39,110 bases of DNA from Actinomycetota bacterium (GTDB lineage Bacteria > Actinomycetota > Actinomycetes > Nanopelagicales > Nanopelagicaceae), in contig JAPLAY010000061.1 in assembly GCA_026393035.1 (NCBI GenBank), positions 1 to 39,110 on the forward strand. The letters run 5' to 3'. The notes beneath the pieces are model-generated. The model was not told the origin of the DNA, made no database searches, and worked only from the letters and a program-made list of their open reading frames with translations. Numbering within the stretch: the first letter of the stretch is position 1; each line of letters opens with the position of its first letter. Position numbers and translations under genes: made by a program. Below, piece after piece: positions 12,736 to 22,047 of the stretch.

Positions 12736-14781
12736 CTAACTCCTTGCAATTGTGCGACGTGCAGCTGCAACGATATTTTCTGGAGTGAATCCGTACTCCT
12801 TAAACAATTCACCGGCAGAAGCCGATGCACCAAAGTGTTCGAGGCTAATAATTTCACCGCTGTCGCCAACATACTTGTGCCAACCAGAACCGACACCAGC
12901 CTCAATGCTCACGCGTGCCTTGATCGACTTCGGCAAAATTTCTTCATGATAGGCCGGGCCTTGCTCATCAAACCATTCCAGAGATGGCGCACTTACAACA
13001 CGTGCAGCAACGTTCTCGTTCGCAAGTAGCGCCGCTGCTGCAATTGCTATGTGAACTTCCGACCCAGTAGCGATCAAAATAACATCAGGATCTTTTGCAG
13101 TATCACAAACAATATAAGCGCCCTTCGCTACTCCTTCGGCGCTGCCACAGCTTGTTCTATCTATTACAGGCAGATTCTGACGAGAGAGTGCAAATCCAGT
13201 TGGTTTACGTCGCTTAATAACTTCACGCCAGGCAATTGCAGTTTCATTTGCATCGGCAGGTCTAACGACGGTGAAATTTGGAATTAACCGAAGTGCAGCA
13301 ATATGTTCAACAGGTTGATGTGTTGGCCCATCTTCACCAAGTCCGATTGAATCGTGGGTCCAAACAAAGATTGATGGAATATCCATTAGAGCAGCGAGTC
13401 GAACTGAACCTCGCATGTAATCACTAAAGACTAAGAATGTGCCACCGAAGCATGTCGATAGCCCATGTAGCGCAATTCCATTAAGGATTGCACCCATTGC
13501 ATGTTCTCGAATTCCAAAATGAATAATTCGACCATAGGGATTGGCATTGGACATCGCACTTGTTTTAGGTAAGAACGATCCGCCACCGCTGATAGTCGTG
13601 TTATTACTTCCCGCGAGGTCAGATGAACCGCCCCAGAATTCTGGCAGAACTGTTGCAAGTGCATTTATAACCTTGCCTGAAGCAGCGCGGGTTGCAAGAT
13701 CTTTGCCACTTTCAAATACCGGAATTACCTTCTCCCAATCTTTTGGAAGTTCTTTGTTGCGTAAACGATTTAGCAGGGCAGCTTTTTCGGGATTAGCTTT
13801 CTCCCAAAGCAAAGCTTGCGCGTTCCATTCGCCATGTAGTTGCGCGCCTCGATATTTCACTTTGCGAGCGTGTGCTAAAACTTCAGTTGACACGACAAAT
13901 GATTCTTCGGGATTTAATCCAAGTGCAATTTTCGTCGCTGCAACTTCTTGCGCACCAAGTGCTGATCCATGCGACTCCGCTGTGCCCTTAGCACTTGGAG
14001 CGGGCCATGCAATAACGGTGTGCAGGCGAATCAAGGTTGGTTTTTTACTCTCAGCTTTCGCTGCAAACATCGCCTTCTCTAAAGCTTCTCGATCAACACT
14101 GCCATCGCTATTTGCGGAAACTTCAATGACGTTCCAACCATAAGCTCGATAGCGTGCAGGAACATCTTCCGTAAAAGCGACGTGAGTATCGCCCTCAATT
14201 GAAATCCGATTGTCATCATAAATAACTTTCAAATTACCAAGCTCTTGCGTGCCCGCTAGTGAGCAGGCTTCAGCACTTACGCCTTCTTGTAAATCGCCAT
14301 CGGAAGCAATTACCCAGATATCGTGATCAAAAAGTTTCGTTGCGCCAGTCGGGTCGAATAGCCCTTTCTCATAACGTGCAGCCATTGCCATACCTACTGC
14401 GCTAGAGATTCCCGAACCAAGAGGCCCAGTTGTTATTTCTACGCCATCGGTATGTCCAAACTCAGGATGGCCCGGAGTTTTTGAACCTGCAGTTCTAAAA
14501 CTTTTTAGATCATCTAGTTCAAGTCCGTAGCCCGAGAAAAAAAGTTGGATGTAAAGAGTCAGTGATGAGTGACCAGCAGAAAGTACAAAGCGATCTCGAC
14601 CTAGCCATTTTGGGTCACTTGGATCATGTCGCAACACGCGTTGAAAGAGTGTGTATGCAACTGGCGCAAGTGCCATCGCAGTACCAGGGTGACCGTTGCC
14701 AACTTTCTGTACCGCATCCATTGCTAAGGCACGGCTTGCGACTACGGCCTGATCATCGAGATCGTTCCACTTTTCAACCAT
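12736..14781 (-). CDS. tkt: Transketolase
   Basis: Thiamine-diphosphate enzyme of the non-oxidative pentose phosphate pathway, 681 residues, moving two-carbon units between sugar phosphates. The N-terminal domain shows VGNGHPGTAMALAP and the ThDP motif SDGDLQEGVSAEA...YDDN near residues 160-195. The middle Pyr domain carries GIREHAMGAILNG (catalytic Glu) and THDSIGLGEDGPTHQPVEH. The start overlaps the ctaA stop by one base (TAATG), and pgi follows at once. In most actinobacteria tkt is followed by tal and the zwf-opcA-pgl genes; here pgi takes that place directly. Length and motifs are complete. Confidence 0.97.
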   Translation of the reverse strand: MVEKWNDLDDQAVVASRALAMDAVQKVGNGHPGTAMALAPVAYTLFQRVLRHDPSDPKWLGRDRFVLSAGHSSLTLYIQLFFSGYGLELDDLKSFRTAGSKTPGHPEFGHTDGVEITTGPLGSGISSAVGMAMAARYEKGLFDPTGATKLFDHDIWVIASDGDLQEGVSAEACSLAGTQELGNLKVIYDDNRISIEGDTHVAFTEDVPARYRAYGWNVIEVSANSDGSVDREALEKAMFAAKAESKKPTLIRLHTVIAWPAPSAKGTAESHGSALGAQEVAATKIALGLNPEESFVVSTEVLAHARKVKYRGAQLHGEWNAQALLWEKANPEKAALLNRLRNKELPKDWEKVIPVFESGKDLATRAASGKVINALATVLPEFWGGSSDLAGSNNTTISGGGSFLPKTSAMSNANPYGRIIHFGIREHAMGAILNGIALHGLSTCFGGTFLVFSDYMRGSVRLAALMDIPSIFVWTHDSIGLGEDGPTHQPVEHIAALRLIPNFTVVRPADANETAIAWREVIKRRKPTGFALSRQNLPVIDRTSCGSAEGVAKGAYIVCDTAKDPDVILIATGSEVHIAIAAAALLANENVAARVVSAPSLEWFDEQGPAYHEEILPKSIKARVSIEAGVGSGWHKYVGDSGEIISLEHFGASASAGELFKEYGFTPENIVAAARRTIARS

Positions 14782-15671
14782 TATATTTTCGCCTTCTTTA
14801 TCTCGATCGCTGTCAATTTAATGCGCCAAATACTTATCCAAACCAGAGTTGCACCTAGGAGATGGGCCCCGACAATCAATTCTGGCAAACCTGTGAAATA
14901 TTGTATGTAACCAATTGCGCCTTGCGATAGCGAAACAATTAGAAAAATTGTTACCAATCTTCCTAGCTCTTTTTTCACTAAAGTGGTTTCAGAAACTCGG
15001 ACCACGAATAATAGTGCAACAGTGATACCGATAAGAAGAATGACCGTGTCTGCGTGAATCCACGAGACCATACGCGGATCAAAGTTATAACGCTTGGCAT
15101 CGATATCGCCAGCATGAGGACCAGTTCCAGTAACAACGGTTCCAAGAAGCAGTACTACAAAAGTTAAGGCGATAACAATTTTTGCAAGCAGGGCCGTTGT
15201 CGGCAAAACTGTAATCATCGGTTTATCGAGTATTCGGTGACGTAATGCAAGGGCTCCTGCTATGAGGGGAATAGTCAAAACAAAATGAGCGGATACTGAA
15301 ATAGGATTAAGTTTTGTTAACACCGTTATGCCACCAAGAACCACCTGGCCGAGAAATCCTGCAATTTGAAGAATGGCTAGCAAACGCAATCTCTTATAAT
15401 CGCCGCGGGCTTTTAGATTCCTAACAATATAAATCAGTGCAGCAAGTGCCAAGATCAAGATAAGCCAGGCGATCAAGCGATTGCCGAATTCGATCCACGC
15501 ATGAAGTTGACCCTGCGCCTGATGAACTACGGGTTTAATAGATCCGCCAGTGCATTCCGGCCAAGTGGGACAGCCGAGTCCTGATCCAGTCAGTCGCACG
15601 GCCCCGCCGGTTACGACTAAACCAGCTTGAAATACGAGGAGCGCTGTAAAGATAAATGCTGACAGGCTCAT
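14781..15671 (-). CDS. ctaA: CtaA/COX15, heme A synthase
   Basis: Integral membrane enzyme, 296 residues, converting heme O to heme A for aa3-type cytochrome oxidase. Eight hydrophobic segments can be traced, the first at residues 3-25. Family motifs are GGAVRLTGSGLGCPTWPEC (paired extracytoplasmic cysteines region near residue 35), a glutamate/histidine loop around HAWIEFGNRL, VTGTGPHAGD and WIHADTV, and HLLGATLVWI near the end; these supply the heme-ligating histidines. Heme O synthase (ctaB), often a neighbour, is not in the window. The gene heads the minus-strand operon and appears leaderless: a -10-like TAGGCT stands six bases before its ATG. Confidence 0.93.
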   Translation of the reverse strand: MSLSAFIFTALLVFQAGLVVTGGAVRLTGSGLGCPTWPECTGGSIKPVVHQAQGQLHAWIEFGNRLIAWLILILALAALIYIVRNLKARGDYKRLRLLAILQIAGFLGQVVLGGITVLTKLNPISVSAHFVLTIPLIAGALALRHRILDKPMITVLPTTALLAKIVIALTFVVLLLGTVVTGTGPHAGDIDAKRYNFDPRMVSWIHADTVILLIGITVALLFVVRVSETTLVKKELGRLVTIFLIVSLSQGAIGYIQYFTGLPELIVGAHLLGATLVWISIWRIKLTAIEIKKAKI

Positions 15672-15677
15672 GCTCGT

Positions 15678-15683
15678 AGCCTA
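15678..15683 (-). promoter_or_regulatory. -10 element of a leaderless ctaA promoter
   Basis: On the minus strand TAGGCT is followed by ACGAGC and then the ctaA ATG, so transcription would start at or next to the A of ATG. There is no Shine-Dalgarno sequence in between. No good -35 was found. The same six-base spacing is seen before the DUF3099 gene, fabG and argC. Confidence 0.55.
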
Positions 15684-15741
15684 TGCGCAGGAGGGTCAAC
15701 CTTGCGTCAGCCTGCCGACTGGCGGGTTTGGCCTATTTACG

Positions 15742-15755
15742 CAACAATAATGTTG
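15742..15755. promoter_or_regulatory. Putative SufR operator CAAC-N6-GTTG
   Basis: The palindrome CAACAATAATGTTG matches the CAAC-N6-GTTG operator established for cyanobacterial SufR. Arms are perfect over five bases (CAACA/TGTTG). Its last base is the first base of the GTG proposed as the sufR start, so bound repressor would cover the transcript start and a possible -10 (AACAAT, 15743-15748, six bases before GTG). This suggests autoregulation of the sufR-suf operon in response to Fe-S status. Binding is inferred from the match only. Confidence 0.6.
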
Positions 15756-16429
15756 TGAAAAAGAGCGAAGAGCGGACCCGAGATCAAGTAGCTCGCGCAA
15801 TTCTTGAAAATGGCCCAGCCACCGCTGTGGCACTTGCATCTAAATTGAAGATCACGCCAGCGGGGATAAGACGGCACTTGGATACCTTGGTTGCGGAAGG
15901 CGTTTTAACTGCCCGTGAACCATTTCAATCAGCAATTGATTCAAGAGGTCGGGGAAGACCTTCAAAAGTTTTCGTTATGACAGATACTGGTCGCGAAAAA
16001 TTTGAACATACTTATGATGATCTCGCAGTTTCTGCTCTTAGGTTTATGTCTTCAAAGGGAAGTAATACTCTCGTAAAAGAATTTGCAAAGAATCGTGCCG
16101 AAGAGATAACTAAACGCGCGGCACAGATTTTGGCTAACAAGAAAAATTTAAGCGATAAGAGCGATGCGCTAGCAACTTTCCTAACTCAAGAAGGTTACGC
16201 AGCAAGTAATCATTCGCAAGGAATTGGCGAGGAGTTATGTCAGCATCACTGCCCAATCGCGCATGTGGCAGCACAATTTCCAGAGCTTTGTGAAGCCGAA
16301 ACCGAAGCGTTTTCAGAGTTACTTGGAACCCACGTACAACGCCTTGCGACAATCGCACATGGCGATGGCGTCTGCACAACATTTATTCCCAACACAAAAA
16401 ATCTAACTAAAAACGGAAAGCGGGCCTGA
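15755..16429 (+). CDS. sufR: SufR, Fe-S cluster-sensing repressor of the suf operon
   Basis: Winged-helix repressor with a C-terminal Fe-S sensor, 224 residues from the GTG chosen. The N-terminal HTH covers about residues 8-60 ([20 protein letters not shown]). The sensor region carries four cysteines at about 162, 166, 179 and 207 ([22 protein letters not shown]), the pattern expected for cluster ligation. The frame is open further upstream to an ATG at 15683, but those 24 extra residues look non-conserved and basic and would read through the operator, so I prefer GTG at 15755. No ribosome site precedes it, in line with a leaderless transcript. The stop lies one base before sufB. Confidence 0.88.
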
Positions 16430-16430
16430 T

Positions 16431-17849
16431 ATGAGCGATGTCTTAGCGAAGAATCCTGGACTTGAAGGAATCGGAAATTATGAGTTCGGCTGGTCTGATA
16501 AAAACGATGTTGGTGCTAATTCGCGTCGAGGCCTGAATGAAGATGTTGTGCGCGATATTTCATCAAAGAAGAGCGAGCCACAGTGGATGTTAGATCTACG
16601 CCTTAAAGGCTTGTCACTCTTTGAGAAGAAGCCAATGCCTACTTGGGGTTCAGACTTATCTGGCATCTTCTTCGACACCATCAAATATTTCGTTCGCTCA
16701 ACCGAGAAGCAAGCTACTTCTTGGGAAGATCTACCAGATGACATTAAGAACACTTACGATCGTTTGGGAATTCCAGAGGCCGAAAAACAACGTTTAGTTT
16801 CCGGTGTTGCAGCTCAGTATGAGTCTGAAGTTGTTTATCACTCGATTCGTGAAGATTTAGAAGCTCAAGGCGTTATCTTCGTAGACACCGATACCGCGCT
16901 ACGTGAACATGAAGAGTTATTCAAGGAGTATTTTGGAACTGTAATCCCAGTTGGAGACAATAAGTTTGCAGCCCTAAATACCTCTGTCTGGTCTGGCGGC
17001 TCATTTATTTATATCCCTAAGGGTGTAAAAGTTGATATTCCGTTACAAGCATATTTCCGTATTAACACTGAGAATATGGGACAGTTCGAACGCACGTTGA
17101 TCATTGCGGATGAAGATTCTTATGTTCACTATGTCGAAGGCTGCACAGCGCCAATTTATTCATCCGATTCATTGCACAGCGCAGTGGTTGAAATCATCAT
17201 CAAAAAGGGTGCGCGAGTTCGCTACACGACAATTCAGAACTGGTCTAATAACGTTTATAACTTGGTAACCAAGCGCGCAACATGTGCAGAAGGTGCAACC
17301 ATGGAATGGGTTGATGGCAATATCGGTTCTAAGGTAACTATGAAATATCCAGCAGTTATGTTGATGGGTCCTCACGCGAAGGGCGAAACTCTTTCGATTG
17401 CCTTTGCTGGTGAAGGCCAACATCAGGATGCCGGTGCAAAGATGGTTCATGCTGCGCCGTACACATCTTCTTCAATCATTTCTAAATCTGTAGCTCGAGG
17501 TGGCGGTCGTACTTCGTATCGCGGATTGATTCAGATTAATGAAGGTGCACATCACTCAAAGTCGACAGTTAAATGTGATGCGCTTCTAGTTGATTCGATC
17601 TCGAGATCTGATACCTATCCTTATGTTGATGTTCGTGAAGATGATGTCTCAATGGGACACGAAGCTACAGTTTCAAAAATTAGCGATGATCAACTCTTCT
17701 ATTTGATGTCTCGTGGCTTAGGCGAAGATGAAGCTATGGCAATGATTGTTCGTGGATTTATTGAACCAATCGCCCGTGAGCTTCCAATGGAATATGCGCT
17801 TGAACTAAATCGTCTGATTGAAATGCAGATGGAAGGTGCTGTTGGTTAA
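16431..17849 (+). CDS. sufB: SufB, Fe-S cluster assembly scaffold
   Basis: Core scaffold of the SUF machine, 472 residues; with SufC and SufD it receives persulfide sulfur and builds Fe-S clusters in the cytosol. The protein shows the conserved [27 protein letters not shown] (Cys), the beta-helix body and the C-terminal [11 protein letters not shown] region ([20 protein letters not shown]). The length is typical. It starts one base after the sufR stop and its own stop overlaps the sufD ATG by one base (TAATG), so expression is tightly coupled. Confidence 0.97.
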
Positions 17850-18934
17850 TGAGTACCTTAACCACTAATTATTTAGCGCCCTCGGGTCGCGAAGAAGCGT
17901 GGCGGTTCACACCGCTATCGCGTCTTGGTGGACTCTTGGATGCGTCCGTAAACCTAGAGAGTGCAAATACTATTTCTCTGGTAAAAAATATCGAAGGTCT
18001 GAAGTTCTCAATAAAGAGTGCGGAAGATTTGCCGGCAATTTCAGTAAGTGATGATTCTGCAACTATCCGAGCACGAGAGTTTATAACTCAGGTAACTCAT
18101 ATTGAGGTAGCTAAAGATGCGAATCTAAGTGAGCCGATTCTTCTAGAGCGCACTTCGCTGAACGGAAACCCGCAAGCAAGCAGAACTTTAATATCTGCTG
18201 GGGTAAATTCTCATGCCACGATAATTCTTCAAAATACCGGCAACGCAATTTTGGCGGATGAGATTGAGTTTGATGTGGCCCCAGGATCGAACCTAACTTT
18301 TGTTTCATTACAAGAGTGGGATGCAAAGACGGTTCATCTAGGACGCCAGCATGCAGTTGTAAGCAAAGATGCAGAATTCAATTCAATCGTTGTAACTGTT
18401 GGTGGATCTCTAGTTCGGCTGCTTCCTACTGTTGAATACAGTGGACCAGGTTCGAGCGCTGATTTGCAGGGACTCTACTTCGCAACTGACGGTCAACATT
18501 TAGAACATCGGTTATTTGTTAATCACAATGTGCCGAACGCTAAAAGTCGGGTCAATTACAAGGGCGCACTTGCGGGAGATAAGGCACATACGGTTTGGAT
18601 TGGTGATGTTTATATTCGAGCCAATGCAGAAGGAACTGATACTTACGAGTTAAACCGAAACCTCCTACTTTCTGATGGAGCTCGTGCAGATTCAGTCCCT
18701 AACTTAGAGATTGAAACTGGCGAAATAGTTGGTGCCGGGCACGCGAGCACTACAGGGCGCTTTGATGATGAACAGCTCTTCTATTTATCTTCACGTGGTA
18801 TTCCTGCTGAGATTGCTCGCCGCTTAGTAGTTCGTGGTTTCTTCGCCGAGATCGTGGGCAAGATCAAGAACGAAGAGATTGAAAATAGATTGATGGATCG
18901 CATTGATGCTGAGCTAGCCAAGGTTGGTGCGTAA
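17849..18934 (+). CDS. sufD: SufD, Fe-S cluster assembly protein
   Basis: Paralogue and partner of SufB in the SufBC2D complex, 361 residues. The N-terminal part (SGREEAWRFTPLSRL) is the usual SufD start helix. The C-terminal beta-helix shows NYKGALAGDKAHTVWIGDVYI, the ELNRNLLLSDGARADSVPNLE motif, a conserved GHASTTGRFDDEQLFYL with the key His, and the closing ARRLVVRGFFAEI. The start overlaps the sufB stop by one base; the Rieske gene begins directly after its stop. Sequence divergence in the N-terminal third is normal for SufD. Confidence 0.94.
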   Translation: MSTLTTNYLAPSGREEAWRFTPLSRLGGLLDASVNLESANTISLVKNIEGLKFSIKSAEDLPAISVSDDSATIRAREFITQVTHIEVAKDANLSEPILLERTSLNGNPQASRTLISAGVNSHATIILQNTGNAILADEIEFDVAPGSNLTFVSLQEWDAKTVHLGRQHAVVSKDAEFNSIVVTVGGSLVRLLPTVEYSGPGSSADLQGLYFATDGQHLEHRLFVNHNVPNAKSRVNYKGALAGDKAHTVWIGDVYIRANAEGTDTYELNRNLLLSDGARADSVPNLEIETGEIVGAGHASTTGRFDDEQLFYLSSRGIPAEIARRLVVRGFFAEIVGKIKNEEIENRLMDRIDAELAKVGA

Positions 18935-19249
18935 ATGTCGGAGCTATCTTTTGATTCATTAGTCGAACGTAAGCCAGTGAAAATTGATCTAAATGGCACT
19001 CCCGTCTGCGTAACTCGGATTGGCGACGAAGTTTTTGCGATTGCAGATACTTGTTCACACTCTGAAGCCTCGCTCTCGGAAGGAGAAGTAACTGACTACA
19101 AAATTGAGTGTTGGTTACATGGCGCTGAATTCGATTTAAGAAGCGGGGAAGTTGTCACACCACCAGCTTCGATCCCAGTTGAAGTATTCGATGTAGTTCG
19201 CGAAGGTGCCGCAATAAAAATTTCTAGCAGAAAATCTGCCCAAGGTTAA
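18935..19249 (+). CDS. Rieske-type [2Fe-2S] ferredoxin in the suf operon
   Basis: Small protein of 104 residues with a complete Rieske motif, Cys40-x-His42 (TCSHSEA) and Cys59-x2-His62 (ECWLHGAEF), which bind a [2Fe-2S] cluster. It resembles the ferredoxin-like subunits of non-heme dioxygenases (BphA3/NirD-like), here placed between sufD and sufC as in many actinobacteria. Its role in SUF is not settled; electron supply for cluster assembly is an inference from position. No signal peptide is visible, so it should be cytosolic. The ATG abuts the sufD stop. Confidence 0.9.
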   Translation: MSELSFDSLVERKPVKIDLNGTPVCVTRIGDEVFAIADTCSHSEASLSEGEVTDYKIECWLHGAEFDLRSGEVVTPPASIPVEVFDVVREGAAIKISSRKSAQG

Positions 19250-19258
19250 GGAGAGAAA

Positions 19259-20011
19259 ATGAGCACATTAGATATTAAGAATTTACAGGTTGCGGTGGCA
19301 ACAGAGAACGGATTCACCGAAATCTTGCGCGGCGTTGATCTAACTATTAAGTCTGGTGAGACACATGCAATCATGGGACCAAATGGTTCCGGCAAATCAA
19401 CCTTGGCGTATTCAATCGCCGGTCATCCGAAATACACAATCACAGGTGGTTCAGTAACTCTGGATGGCGTAGATGTACTTGCGATGTCGGTAGATGAACG
19501 TGCGAAAGCTGGCCTATTTTTGGCTATGCAATATCCAGTTGAAGTACCAGGAGTTTCAGTAACTAACTTTTTGCGTACCGCTGCAACTGCAATTCGAGGC
19601 GAAGCTCCGAAGATCAGAACTTGGGTAGGCGAAGTTAAAGAGGCAATGGCGGCGCTAAACATGGATACGAACTTTGCTGAACGTAACGTTAACGAAGGTT
19701 TCTCAGGTGGCGAGAAGAAGCGTCACGAGATTCTTCAACTAGAACTTCTAAAGCCTAAATTTGCCATCCTAGATGAGACCGACTCTGGTCTAGATGTGGA
19801 TGCACTTCGCATTGTTTCCGAAGGTGTAAATCGCGTTAAGGGAAATAGCGATCTTGGAATAATGCTGATTACGCACTACACAAGAATTCTTCGTTACATC
19901 AAACCTGATTTTGTTCACGTCTTTGCTGCTGGAAAAATTGTTGAAGAAGGCGGACCAGAGCTAGCAGACAAATTAGAAGAGAAAGGTTATGCAGAGTACA
20001 CAACTGCATAA
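19259..20011 (+). CDS. sufC: SufC, Fe-S assembly ATPase
   Basis: ABC-type ATPase of the cytosolic SufBC2D complex, 250 residues; ATP use drives conformational change in SufB/SufD rather than membrane transport. Walker A is GPNGSGKST at residues 40-48, the family signature is FSGGEKKRHEILQ (SufC-type, not the usual LSGGQ), and Walker B is AILDETDSGLDVDAL. The switch His is in LITHYTRIL. A ribosome site AAGGAGAG precedes the ATG. The length is normal, and the gene lies between the Rieske gene and sufS. Confidence 0.97.
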   Translation: MSTLDIKNLQVAVATENGFTEILRGVDLTIKSGETHAIMGPNGSGKSTLAYSIAGHPKYTITGGSVTLDGVDVLAMSVDERAKAGLFLAMQYPVEVPGVSVTNFLRTAATAIRGEAPKIRTWVGEVKEAMAALNMDTNFAERNVNEGFSGGEKKRHEILQLELLKPKFAILDETDSGLDVDALRIVSEGVNRVKGNSDLGIMLITHYTRILRYIKPDFVHVFAAGKIVEEGGPELADKLEEKGYAEYTTA

Positions 20012-20014
20012 GCA

Positions 20015-21268
20015 ATGAAATCAATGTTCTCTCCAGCAGAGATTCGAAAAGACTTTCCTATCTTCGCTAAAACCATGCGTGGTGGTAATCGCTTGGTCTA
20101 TTTAGATAGTGGAGCTACGAGCCAAAAACCTCGTTCGGTTTTGGACGCTGAGCGCAATTTTTATGAATTGCATAATGCGGCAGTACATCGTGGCGCACAT
20201 CTGTTAGCGGAAGAAGCAAGTAGCGAATATGAAGGCGCAAGAGCGGTTCTAGCTGGATTTCTTAATGCAGAAGTTGATGAAGTTATCTTCACGAAGAGCG
20301 CTACCGAAAGCTTGAATGCAATTGCATATTCATTTGGAAACGCTCCTGCAAATTCTAAGTTCTCGATAAAGCCAGGGGATCGAATAGTAGTTTCAGAGTT
20401 AGAGCATCATGCGAATTTGATTCCGTGGCAACAACTAGCGAAACGAACCGGCGCGGAACTCGTTTGGTTTCCAATCGATGGCGAAGGTCGGATAGATCTC
20501 TCGAAAATCGATGAGCTCATTACCGAGCGCACAAAAGTTGTCGCCCTGACACATCAGTCAAATGTCCTTGGGACAATTGTTCCAATTGAGAAGATAGTAG
20601 AAGCGACCCATGCGGTTGGAGCGCTCTTCGTTTTAGATGCTTGCCAATCAGCCCCGCACTTTAAAATTGATGTAAAAAAATTAGGAGTTGATTTCCTAGC
20701 ATTTTCTGGTCACAAGGCGCTAGGACCAACTGGCATTGGAATTCTCTGGGGGCGTTTAGATTTATTGAATCATATGGAGCCATTTCTAACAGGTGGATCA
20801 ATGATTGAGTCAGTAACAATGACCGATGCAACTTGGGCAAAGGCCCCGAAGAGATTTGAAGCTGGCGTTCCCAATATGGCGCAGGCAGTTGGGTTAGCGG
20901 CAGCAATTAAATATTTAGATGCACTTGGCATGGATAACGTTGCCAAGCACGAAAAAGATTTGACTGGCTATGCGCTTAATCAATTTGCTAATTTAGATGG
21001 CGTAAATGTCATAGGTCCTAAGAACAACATCGATCGTGGTTCCGTAATCTCCTTCGAAATAACAGGAATTCATCCTCATGATGTCGGGCAAGTTCTTGAT
21101 CAATATGGAATAGCGGTCCGGACGGGGCATCACTGCGCTTGGCCGTTGATGAGGAAATTAGGATTAGTCGGTACAACAAGAGCTTCTTTCTATGTTTACA
21201 ATGATGAAAGCGATGTCGATAGTTTAATTTCAGCAATCGATGAAGCTAAGAAATACTTTAAGGTATAG
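20015..21268 (+). CDS. sufS: SufS, cysteine desulfurase
   Basis: PLP enzyme, 417 residues, taking sulfur from cysteine as a persulfide for Fe-S synthesis. The PLP lysine is Lys234 in SGHKALGPTG, and the catalytic Cys374 lies in RTGHHCAWPLM, the group II (SufS/CsdB) context. ELEHHANLIPWQQL and LTHQSNVLGTIVPI are other conserved parts. It starts three bases after the sufC stop and precedes sufU, its usual sulfur-acceptor partner in Gram-positives, by two bases. A second in-frame ATG lies at codon 4, so the exact start is open by a few residues. Confidence 0.96.
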   Translation: MKSMFSPAEIRKDFPIFAKTMRGGNRLVYLDSGATSQKPRSVLDAERNFYELHNAAVHRGAHLLAEEASSEYEGARAVLAGFLNAEVDEVIFTKSATESLNAIAYSFGNAPANSKFSIKPGDRIVVSELEHHANLIPWQQLAKRTGAELVWFPIDGEGRIDLSKIDELITERTKVVALTHQSNVLGTIVPIEKIVEATHAVGALFVLDACQSAPHFKIDVKKLGVDFLAFSGHKALGPTGIGILWGRLDLLNHMEPFLTGGSMIESVTMTDATWAKAPKRFEAGVPNMAQAVGLAAAIKYLDALGMDNVAKHEKDLTGYALNQFANLDGVNVIGPKNNIDRGSVISFEITGIHPHDVGQVLDQYGIAVRTGHHCAWPLMRKLGLVGTTRASFYVYNDESDVDSLISAIDEAKKYFKV

Positions 21269-21270
21269 AT

Positions 21271-21708
21271 ATGGAATTAGATTCGCTCTATCAAGAAGTG
21301 ATTTTGGATCACTACAAACATCCGCAACATAAGAAACTCAATCCGAGTTATACAGCACAGGTGCATCATGTAAACCCAAGTTGTGGTGATGAAATCACCC
21401 TCAATGTTTCGATGAAAGATGGGGTAGTGGAGAGCGTTTCTTGGGATGGAGTCGGTTGCTCAATCTCACAAGCAAGTACTTCGATAGCTTCAGATTTAAT
21501 GATCGGCAAAACCCTCGAAACAGCCCTCGCAACGGTCGATGCATTCTCGCAATTGATGTCCAGTAAAGGGAATGAAACGGGCGATGAGAATGTTTTAGAG
21601 GATGGAGTTGCGCTAGCTGGGGTATCAAAGTTCCCAGCTCGTATAAAATGCGCACTATTAGGGTGGATGGCGTTTAAGGATGCAGCACTACAAAGCGGAG
21701 CTAACTAG
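21271..21708 (+). CDS. sufU: SufU, zinc-dependent sulfur transfer protein
   Basis: IscU-like fold, 145 residues. In Gram-positives SufU is a zinc-bound sulfurtransferase that takes persulfide from SufS. The three family cysteines are in place: Cys38 (NPSCGDE), Cys63 (GVGCSIS) and Cys127 (ARIKCALL), with Asp40 as the fourth zinc ligand candidate. The N-terminal LYQEVILDHYKHP is characteristic. The spacer of about 20 residues between the second and third cysteines that distinguishes SufU from IscU appears present (MSSKGNETGDENVLED). The gene lies two bases after sufS; sufT follows after 18 bases. Confidence 0.95.
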   Translation: MELDSLYQEVILDHYKHPQHKKLNPSYTAQVHHVNPSCGDEITLNVSMKDGVVESVSWDGVGCSISQASTSIASDLMIGKTLETALATVDAFSQLMSSKGNETGDENVLEDGVALAGVSKFPARIKCALLGWMAFKDAALQSGAN

Positions 21709-21726: not shown

Positions 21727-22047
21727 ATGAGCAATTCAAATACAACGCTCGATGATGTAACAGAAGCTATGAAAGATGTGATCGATCCCGAACTTGGGAT
21801 TAACGTCATCGATTTGGGCTTGGTCTACGACATGCGTCTGGACGAGAACAATGTTGCAATTTTGGATATGACTTTAACTTCTGCTGCTTGCCCGTTACAG
21901 GATGTTATTGAAGATCAGACCCATCAAGTTCTAGCGGATATAACTTCTGATGTAAAAATAAACTGGGTTTGGATGCCACCTTGGGGACCAGGAAAGATTA
22001 CAGACGAGGGTAGAGAACAATTACGAGCGATTGGTTTCACGGTTTAA
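21727..22047 (+). CDS. sufT: SufT-like DUF59/MIP18-family Fe-S maturation protein
   Basis: Small MIP18/PaaD-family protein of 106 residues, associated with Fe-S protein maturation (SufT in actinobacteria and Staphylococcus). The motif DPELGINVIDLGLVYDMR and the cysteine-bearing TSAACPLQDVIEDQ are both intact, and the C-terminal WVWMPPWGPGKITDEGREQL matches the family. A ribosome site AGGGAGAAG precedes the ATG. As the last suf gene it probably helps deliver clusters to client proteins; the clients are not identifiable here. Confidence 0.92.
   Translation: MSNSNTTLDDVTEAMKDVIDPELGINVIDLGLVYDMRLDENNVAILDMTLTSAACPLQDVIEDQTHQVLADITSDVKINWVWMPPWGPGKITDEGREQLRAIGFTV

Follow-up and report, generated by a model that had tools for sequence, protein, structure and literature searches.

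The window analysed here is a stretch of 39,110 nucleotides that makes up contig C60 of a 1.26-Mb genome, 83% complete, and it carries a suf gene cluster for Fe-S cluster assembly that opens with sufR, a gene for a putative Fe-S-sensing repressor, and stands divergently to a heme A synthase gene. The genes of the locus, with the models that identify their products, are as follows.

14781..15671, − strand: divergent heme A synthase gene (COX15/CtaA), with its start codon 83 bp from the sufR start codon
15755..16429, + strand: sufR (224 aa; winged helix; presumed cluster-ligand cysteines 162, 166, 179 and 207)
16431..17849, + strand: sufB (TIGR01980)
17849..18934, + strand: sufD (TIGR01981)
18935..19249, + strand: Rieske-type [2Fe-2S] ferredoxin gene (PF00355)
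19259..20011, + strand: sufC (TIGR01978)
20015..21268, + strand: sufS (TIGR01979)
21271..21708, + strand: sufU (TIGR01994)
21727..22047, + strand: gene of a sufT-like protein (PF01883)

The genes sufR-B-D-Rieske-C-S-U-T are closely packed on the + strand, all of them 3' of the candidate regulatory site, and from the gene spacing it is plausible that the whole suf unit is under the sufR operator. At its far end, the contig stops within the start of a 16S rRNA gene (Rfam RF00177; 38884-39110). The regulatory features read at the 5' end of sufR are the following.

15719..15724, + strand: putative -35 CTGGCG, 18 bp from the -10, suggested by the class columns
15735..15761, unstranded: class-wide conserved block, consensus AATTA(C/G)G n(C/A)ACA(C/A)T nnT GTTGTGAAA(A), profile positions -6 to 20
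15737..15760, unstranded: extended operator TTACGCAACAATAATGTTGTGAAA, with 0 mismatches to the extended dyad; supported by the class profile and the efeU dyad
15742..15755, + strand: core SufR-type operator CAACAATAATGTTG (CAAC-N6-GTTG), kept in 24 of 24 same-genus loci
15743..15748, + strand: putative -10 hexamer AACAAT
15755..15757, + strand: GTG start codon and probable transcription start (leaderless), supported by the class sites and by parallels in Streptomyces avermitilis and Mycobacterium tuberculosis

The original prediction had described a CAAC-N6-GTTG palindrome at 15742-15755, whose last base is the first of a GTG start codon and which holds an AACAAT hexamer ending six bases before that codon, and all of these elements are present in the sequence. 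As a bare pattern the palindrome carries no significance. The window holds a single CAAC-N6-GTTG where 0.56 would be expected, 38 of 100 shuffled versions contain the pattern one or more times, and in the window's genome it is found at 33 places, fewer than the 82 of a reversed control pattern. An argument from motif counts was therefore rejected, since chance suffices in the window and the reversed control is the commoner of the two in the genome; we consider the sufR site real because of its position and conservation, not its count. Among 27 genomes of the same genus the sufR locus was located in 24, and in all 24 loci CAAC-N6-GTTG is followed directly by TGAAA, with a variable N6. The palindrome is thus kept in close relatives, as the original prediction needed it to be, and a related element extends to 74 of 79 genera.

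For this wider comparison, one sufR upstream region was used per genus of the class, the loci being chosen among the matches listed plus 30 more genomes. With the extended motif, a score of 12 or higher out of 16 is obtained for 74 of the 79 genera, and for first-order shuffles of the upstream regions in 10 of 1580 trials; the profile and the counts on 74 refer to the genera that pass this threshold, the representatives below 12 being L198, L228, L242, L243 and L244. Contig ends truncate three loci (L097, L102 and L210), and the N-terminal part is missing from L133. At 71 of the 74 class sites the last G of the operator, which is position 15755 in the window, opens an in-frame GTG (70) or ATG (1). 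L215 has GTC where the start codon would be expected at its SufR-type site, and L239, L241 and L244 have weak or out-of-frame SufR-type sites 5' of sufR and are perhaps leadered genes.

We infer that sufR is leaderless, with transcription starting at the G of the GTG at 15755: the spacing of the putative promoter and the 71 class sites agree with a start point on the first base of the start codon. The class profile columns that correspond to 15720 and 15721, within the putative -35, hold T in 88% and G in 51% of the sites, respectively. A consensus promoter scan made no call at sufR, and in the whole region it found 4 promoters against 15.5 expected. Translation from the ATG at 15683 (codon -24), which would place the palindrome inside the coding region and which the original prediction had itself named as fatal, is barely credible and was rejected, because that frame, which stays open in the window and 8 further loci out of the 24 from the genus, is interrupted by in-frame stops at codon -7 in L006 and codon -10 in L026 with no start in between, and the 71 class sites whose last G begins a GTG or ATG in frame speak against it as well. 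The sequence and these stops support the predicted layout, with the operator lying over the -10, the start point and the GTG start codon at 15755.

Such a layout raises the question whether the conserved block could be nothing but a promoter and a leaderless start codon, with the palindrome incidental. A -10, a start point and a GTG do account for A3, T7 and positions 14-16 of the element, and since the motif itself served to select the sites and includes most core columns, the conservation of the core is biased and partly a product of construction. The left flank, however, was not used in picking, and it is conserved without a promoter reason: AATTA(C/G)G is kept at 81-96% per base, with 59% C and 35% G at the C/G position, and the flank columns (positions -6 to 0) hold 0.8-1.7 bits against mostly less than 0.5 further upstream, except for the -35 T. 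Codon 2 also argues against a promoter alone. With sites picked without regard to this codon, 61 high-GC representatives have AAA there 50 times and AAG 0 times, whereas the rest of their coding stretches have AAA 6 times and AAG 65 times (Fisher p about 1e-27); an earlier count on 22 loci, with a motif that included codon 2, gave the same picture. The second codon of sufR is constrained at the DNA level. Binding of SufR to the same site is moreover reported for S. avermitilis in the available part of PMC11995493, and the same arms recur at a second gene, efeU, where they lie off any start codon. Taken with these observations, a promoter with an incidental palindrome is a very improbable account of the block.

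The class profile also bears on the identity of the motif. Strict CAAC-N6-GTTG is present in 18 of the 74 genus representatives and elsewhere positions 1-2 vary (GC, AC, TC, CC and others), while ACA(C/A)T-N3-GTTGTGAAA stays. The mycobacterial SufR motif is ACACT-N5-TGTGA; its strict form is found in 29 of the 74 genera, and ACA(C/A)T-N5-TGTGA in 51. Because the class-wide element contains both descriptions, the cyanobacterial and mycobacterial motifs look like one element in two registers, and the contrast between a cyanobacterial and a mycobacterial-style site, from which the original prediction had drawn part of its interest, looks false. A literature search for the letters of the mycobacterial motif matched no SufR paper. 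In this motif, and in its iron import, which is thought to be under IdeR, M. tuberculosis is unlike the system described here. Within the family Nanopelagicaceae (f1), the strict form is present in 8 of 13 sampled genera (g1, g2, g6, g7, g8, g10, g11 and g16) and changed in the others (g3, g5, g9, g14 and g15). The best dyad centre of the element is 7.5, which is the centre of CAAC-N6-GTTG, with a column-permutation value of 0.0045 at this fixed centre and 0.06 for the maximum over centres; the centres 9.0 (TCACA-N7-TGTGA) and 5.0 were rejected as weaker, and the palindromes at efeU share the centre 7.5.

The protein encoded by sufR in the window has an N-terminal winged helix-turn-helix that matches PF13412 above its cut-off. 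Across 63 SufRs of the class, counted where the site is in frame and scores 12 or more and the protein has 190 aa or more, the helix-turn-helix stretch is largely kept, with the helix TPAG(I/V)RRHLD, and all 63 share the cysteine ligand spacing C-x3-C-x12-C-x27-C (residues 162, 166, 179 and 207 here). The NCBIfam model TIGR02702 (SufR_cyano) is named for the cyanobacterial branch, and the window's SufR differs from that branch in scoring 82 bits, below its cut-off of 178.8; the same model matches 12 of 14 control genomes, C. glutamicum included, only 1 of them above the cut-off. The assignment to SufR consequently rests on the winged helix, the cysteines and the gene linkage, sufR being linked to sufB, sufD, sufC, sufS and sufU. 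The presumed ligands of the C. glutamicum SufR, at 171, 175, 188 and 216, have the same spacing according to the available part of PMC11995493. In family f31, all 13 sampled genomes are without a SufR match among the matches listed (G234, G243, G252, G270, G278, G294, G310, G317, G325, G333, G356, G377 and G398).

The sufR site closely resembles characterized SufR systems, as these are described in the parts of the cited articles that were available. In S. avermitilis, the sufR promoter has CAAC-N6-GTTG with the -10 AACAAT over its first half and the last G as transcription start, and sufR is likewise the first gene of a sufRBDCSU operon (Cheng et al. 2020 via PMC11995493). The M. tuberculosis sufR (Rv1460) is leaderless and autorepressed, with the suf operon downstream and a ChIP site near the start codon, as here (PMC6034842). 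The original prediction had considered such a site notable for Actinobacteria, a view that these two precedents do not support. Cyanobacterial SufR is similarly an Fe-S repressor with an N-terminal DNA-binding domain, a CAAC-N6-GTTG operator and autoregulation (PMC8593673, PMC13421787, PMC7058544; partial texts); unlike here, sufR is divergent from sufBCDS in cyanobacteria, and the ligand spacing given in the accessible part of a review is C-X12-C-X13-C-X14-C. The C. glutamicum sufR promoter shares GAAC-N6-GTTG with TSS1, but differs in having several start points and an apparent leader, since the authors keep a ribosome binding site (PMC11995493, available part). The sufR site is therefore ordinary: a known type of autoregulatory operator, in a form with class-wide conservation. 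The class-wide extent and the codon-level constraint at sufR are made explicit here, and the new part is the operator at efeU: S. avermitilis differs in that the available portion of PMC11995493 reports no efeU target, and L284, the only efeU region read in genus g32, from a 9.2-Mb genome that resembles Streptomyces in size and sufR site, is without the palindrome.

This second candidate target, an iron importer, is reached through the fuller SufR half-site, AATTACGCAAC, that the sufR site provides. An extended-dyad scan of the window's genome returned sufR with 0 mismatches and one site with 1 mismatch, TTTCGCAACATTTAAGTTGCGTAA, which is located between an RNase D-like gene and efeU and starts at the stop codon of the former. 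The product of efeU is an iron permease by its match to NF041756 above the cut-off and to PF03239. Upstream regions of efeU were read in 49 of the 60 family genomes with efeU (30 loci and 19 added for genera, including g5), and 3 more efeU genomes (G051, G083 and G088) were covered by a scan of 29 genomes. The palindrome matches at least 16 of 18 positions in 49 of 49 family loci and is perfect (18/18) in 37 of them, with 29 different N6 cores. Its full form is AATTACGCAAC-N6-GTTGCGTAATT. The left arm of the sufR element has the same half-site, AATTACGCAAC, and its right arm differs and encodes GTG AAA. From the end of the right arm of the efeU palindrome to the aligned efeU start there are 27-29 nt in 45 of 49 loci, and TAnnnT/C lies within 14 nt of that start in 46 of 49; this spacing suggests that efeU is leaderless and has its -35 inside the right arm.

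Scanned with up to 3 mismatches, the 29 genomes gave 47 sites against 35 for the reversed control. Sites with 0-1 mismatches number one per genome; 24 of these adjoin a located efeU, and the other 5 lie in genomes where efeU is unlocated (G098, G103, G108, G113 and G121). Thirteen further sites are those of sufR, with 2-3 mismatches. An RNA hairpin, or a terminator belonging to the upstream gene, is a scarcely conceivable alternative to a protein site at efeU. In its favour, the palindrome of the window's genome starts on the RNase D-like stop codon, and 28-mers from three loci fold at about -8 to -13 kcal/mol; against it, none of 50 loci has a TTTT within 12 nt 3' of the arm, the inner arms show little or no sequence variation, compensatory changes are confined to one of 11 pairs (an A-T pair near the outer end, in 4 of 49 loci), L247 and L250 have no Rfam match, and the right arm keeps its fixed distance from the efeU start. 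Given arms that hardly vary, almost no compensation and no T-run, the palindrome reads as a protein-binding site.

The DtxR/IdeR C-terminal domain PF02742 was not found in 78 of 81 family genomes, and the three genomes that have it all belong to genus g5; the 81 genomes represent family genera other than g4, g11, g12 and g14, four genera with sites, and overlap only partly with the 49 efeU loci. The three efeU loci of g5 (L337, L338 and L339) combine the palindrome at 16/18 with an IdeR-type box at 16/19, so that DtxR domain, IdeR box and SufR palindrome occur together in this genus, whereas the other family loci read have the SufR palindrome only: those 46 loci score no higher than 12 for the IdeR box, a value that lies within the range of shuffles. 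Of 27 efeU-like loci outside the family, from 25 genomes, 23 score at least 13 for this box (shuffles, 3 of 540), and the palindrome is found at 1 of the 27, in the 1.5-Mb genome G269 of family f34, without an IdeR box. At least 18 of the 25 outside genomes have SufR among the matches listed; as the palindrome is nearly absent from them despite SufR, it appears to be a lineage trait, and the idea of a general actinobacterial trait was rejected. The seven efeU loci of family f31 have no palindrome, which proves little because 19 of the 20 other outside loci are also without it. Family f34 also includes G277, whose two efeU-like copies carry IdeR-like boxes where the small genome G269 has the palindrome (L288, L305 and L289).

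We propose that SufR autoregulates the sufR operon and, in Nanopelagicaceae, also represses efeU, a reading to which we assign a probability of about 0.78. SufR carrying a [4Fe-4S] cluster would bind the extended dyad, AATTACGCAAC-N6-GTTGCGTAATT in its full form, which at the leaderless sufR covers the -10, the start point, the GTG and codon 2, and its binding would shut off the whole sufR-B-D-Rieske-C-S-U-T unit. Under iron or redox stress SufR would lose the cluster and free the operator. At efeU, a near-perfect operator copy that covers the -35 region would let the same SufR repress the gene, and iron import would then be controlled by Fe-S status and not by the free Fe2+ sensed by DtxR/IdeR. 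What can be read directly from the genomes are the sites, their conservation, the 29-genome distribution, the lack of PF02742 in 78 of 81 genomes and the conserved cysteines, and it is from these that we infer SufR binding, the direction of control and the leaderless start points. In the case of efeU, three observations make SufR the predicted regulator: the half-site common to both genes, the way close matches are distributed, and the lack of the DtxR domain.

SufR might instead autoregulate as in Streptomyces, with the efeU palindrome belonging to another iron regulator, such as one of the Fur family, that shares the half-site. This would fit the SufR-bearing genomes outside the family, almost all of which are without the efeU palindrome. 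We nevertheless consider it unlikely, because the efeU half-site is identical to the left arm of the sufR element, the flank of which is conserved in genera without an efeU palindrome, and because sites with 0-1 mismatch occur in the 29 genomes only at efeU (24) or where efeU was unlocated (5). With efeU as the only close site in 24 genomes, a second, autoregulated regulator would have no close site of its own, and the DtxR domain was not found in 78 of 81 family genomes.

If SufR does control efeU, iron uptake would follow the demand for clusters and not free Fe2+, and a sensor of Fe-S status would have taken over iron uptake upon loss of the standard iron sensor. It is somewhat probable, judging by these distributions, that SufR replaced DtxR/IdeR as the controller of iron import in streamlined freshwater actinobacteria, with g5 as the intermediate state, which would make these bacteria a testable case of regulatory handover during genome streamlining. 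The literature searched (SufR regulon and iron uptake, Nanopelagicales, DtxR/IdeR, acI), a scope outside which most subscription papers fell, held no link between SufR and efeU, and neither did the available parts of PMC10848736, PMC2807442, PMC12422013 and PMC7058544.

Beyond sufR and efeU, a wider regulon in the window's genome was considered and rejected. With a looser dyad pattern and up to 3 mismatches, this genome gave 4 matches against 11 for the reversed control, and the matches on C17 (2 mismatches; within a putative ATP synthase subunit ORF) and C71 (3 mismatches) are for this reason treated as chance. Reversed controls match often at 3 mismatches, so only close matches are meaningful and 3-mismatch sites are noise. 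The 29-genome scan left 5 sites other than those at sufR and the close matches, four with 3 mismatches and one with 2. A 2-mismatch palindrome in G040 (L356:1506-1529, G040:C1:1126005-1126028) lies 5' of a metY-like sulphur amino acid gene, labelled from its ORF reading in this single genome, and may be chance.
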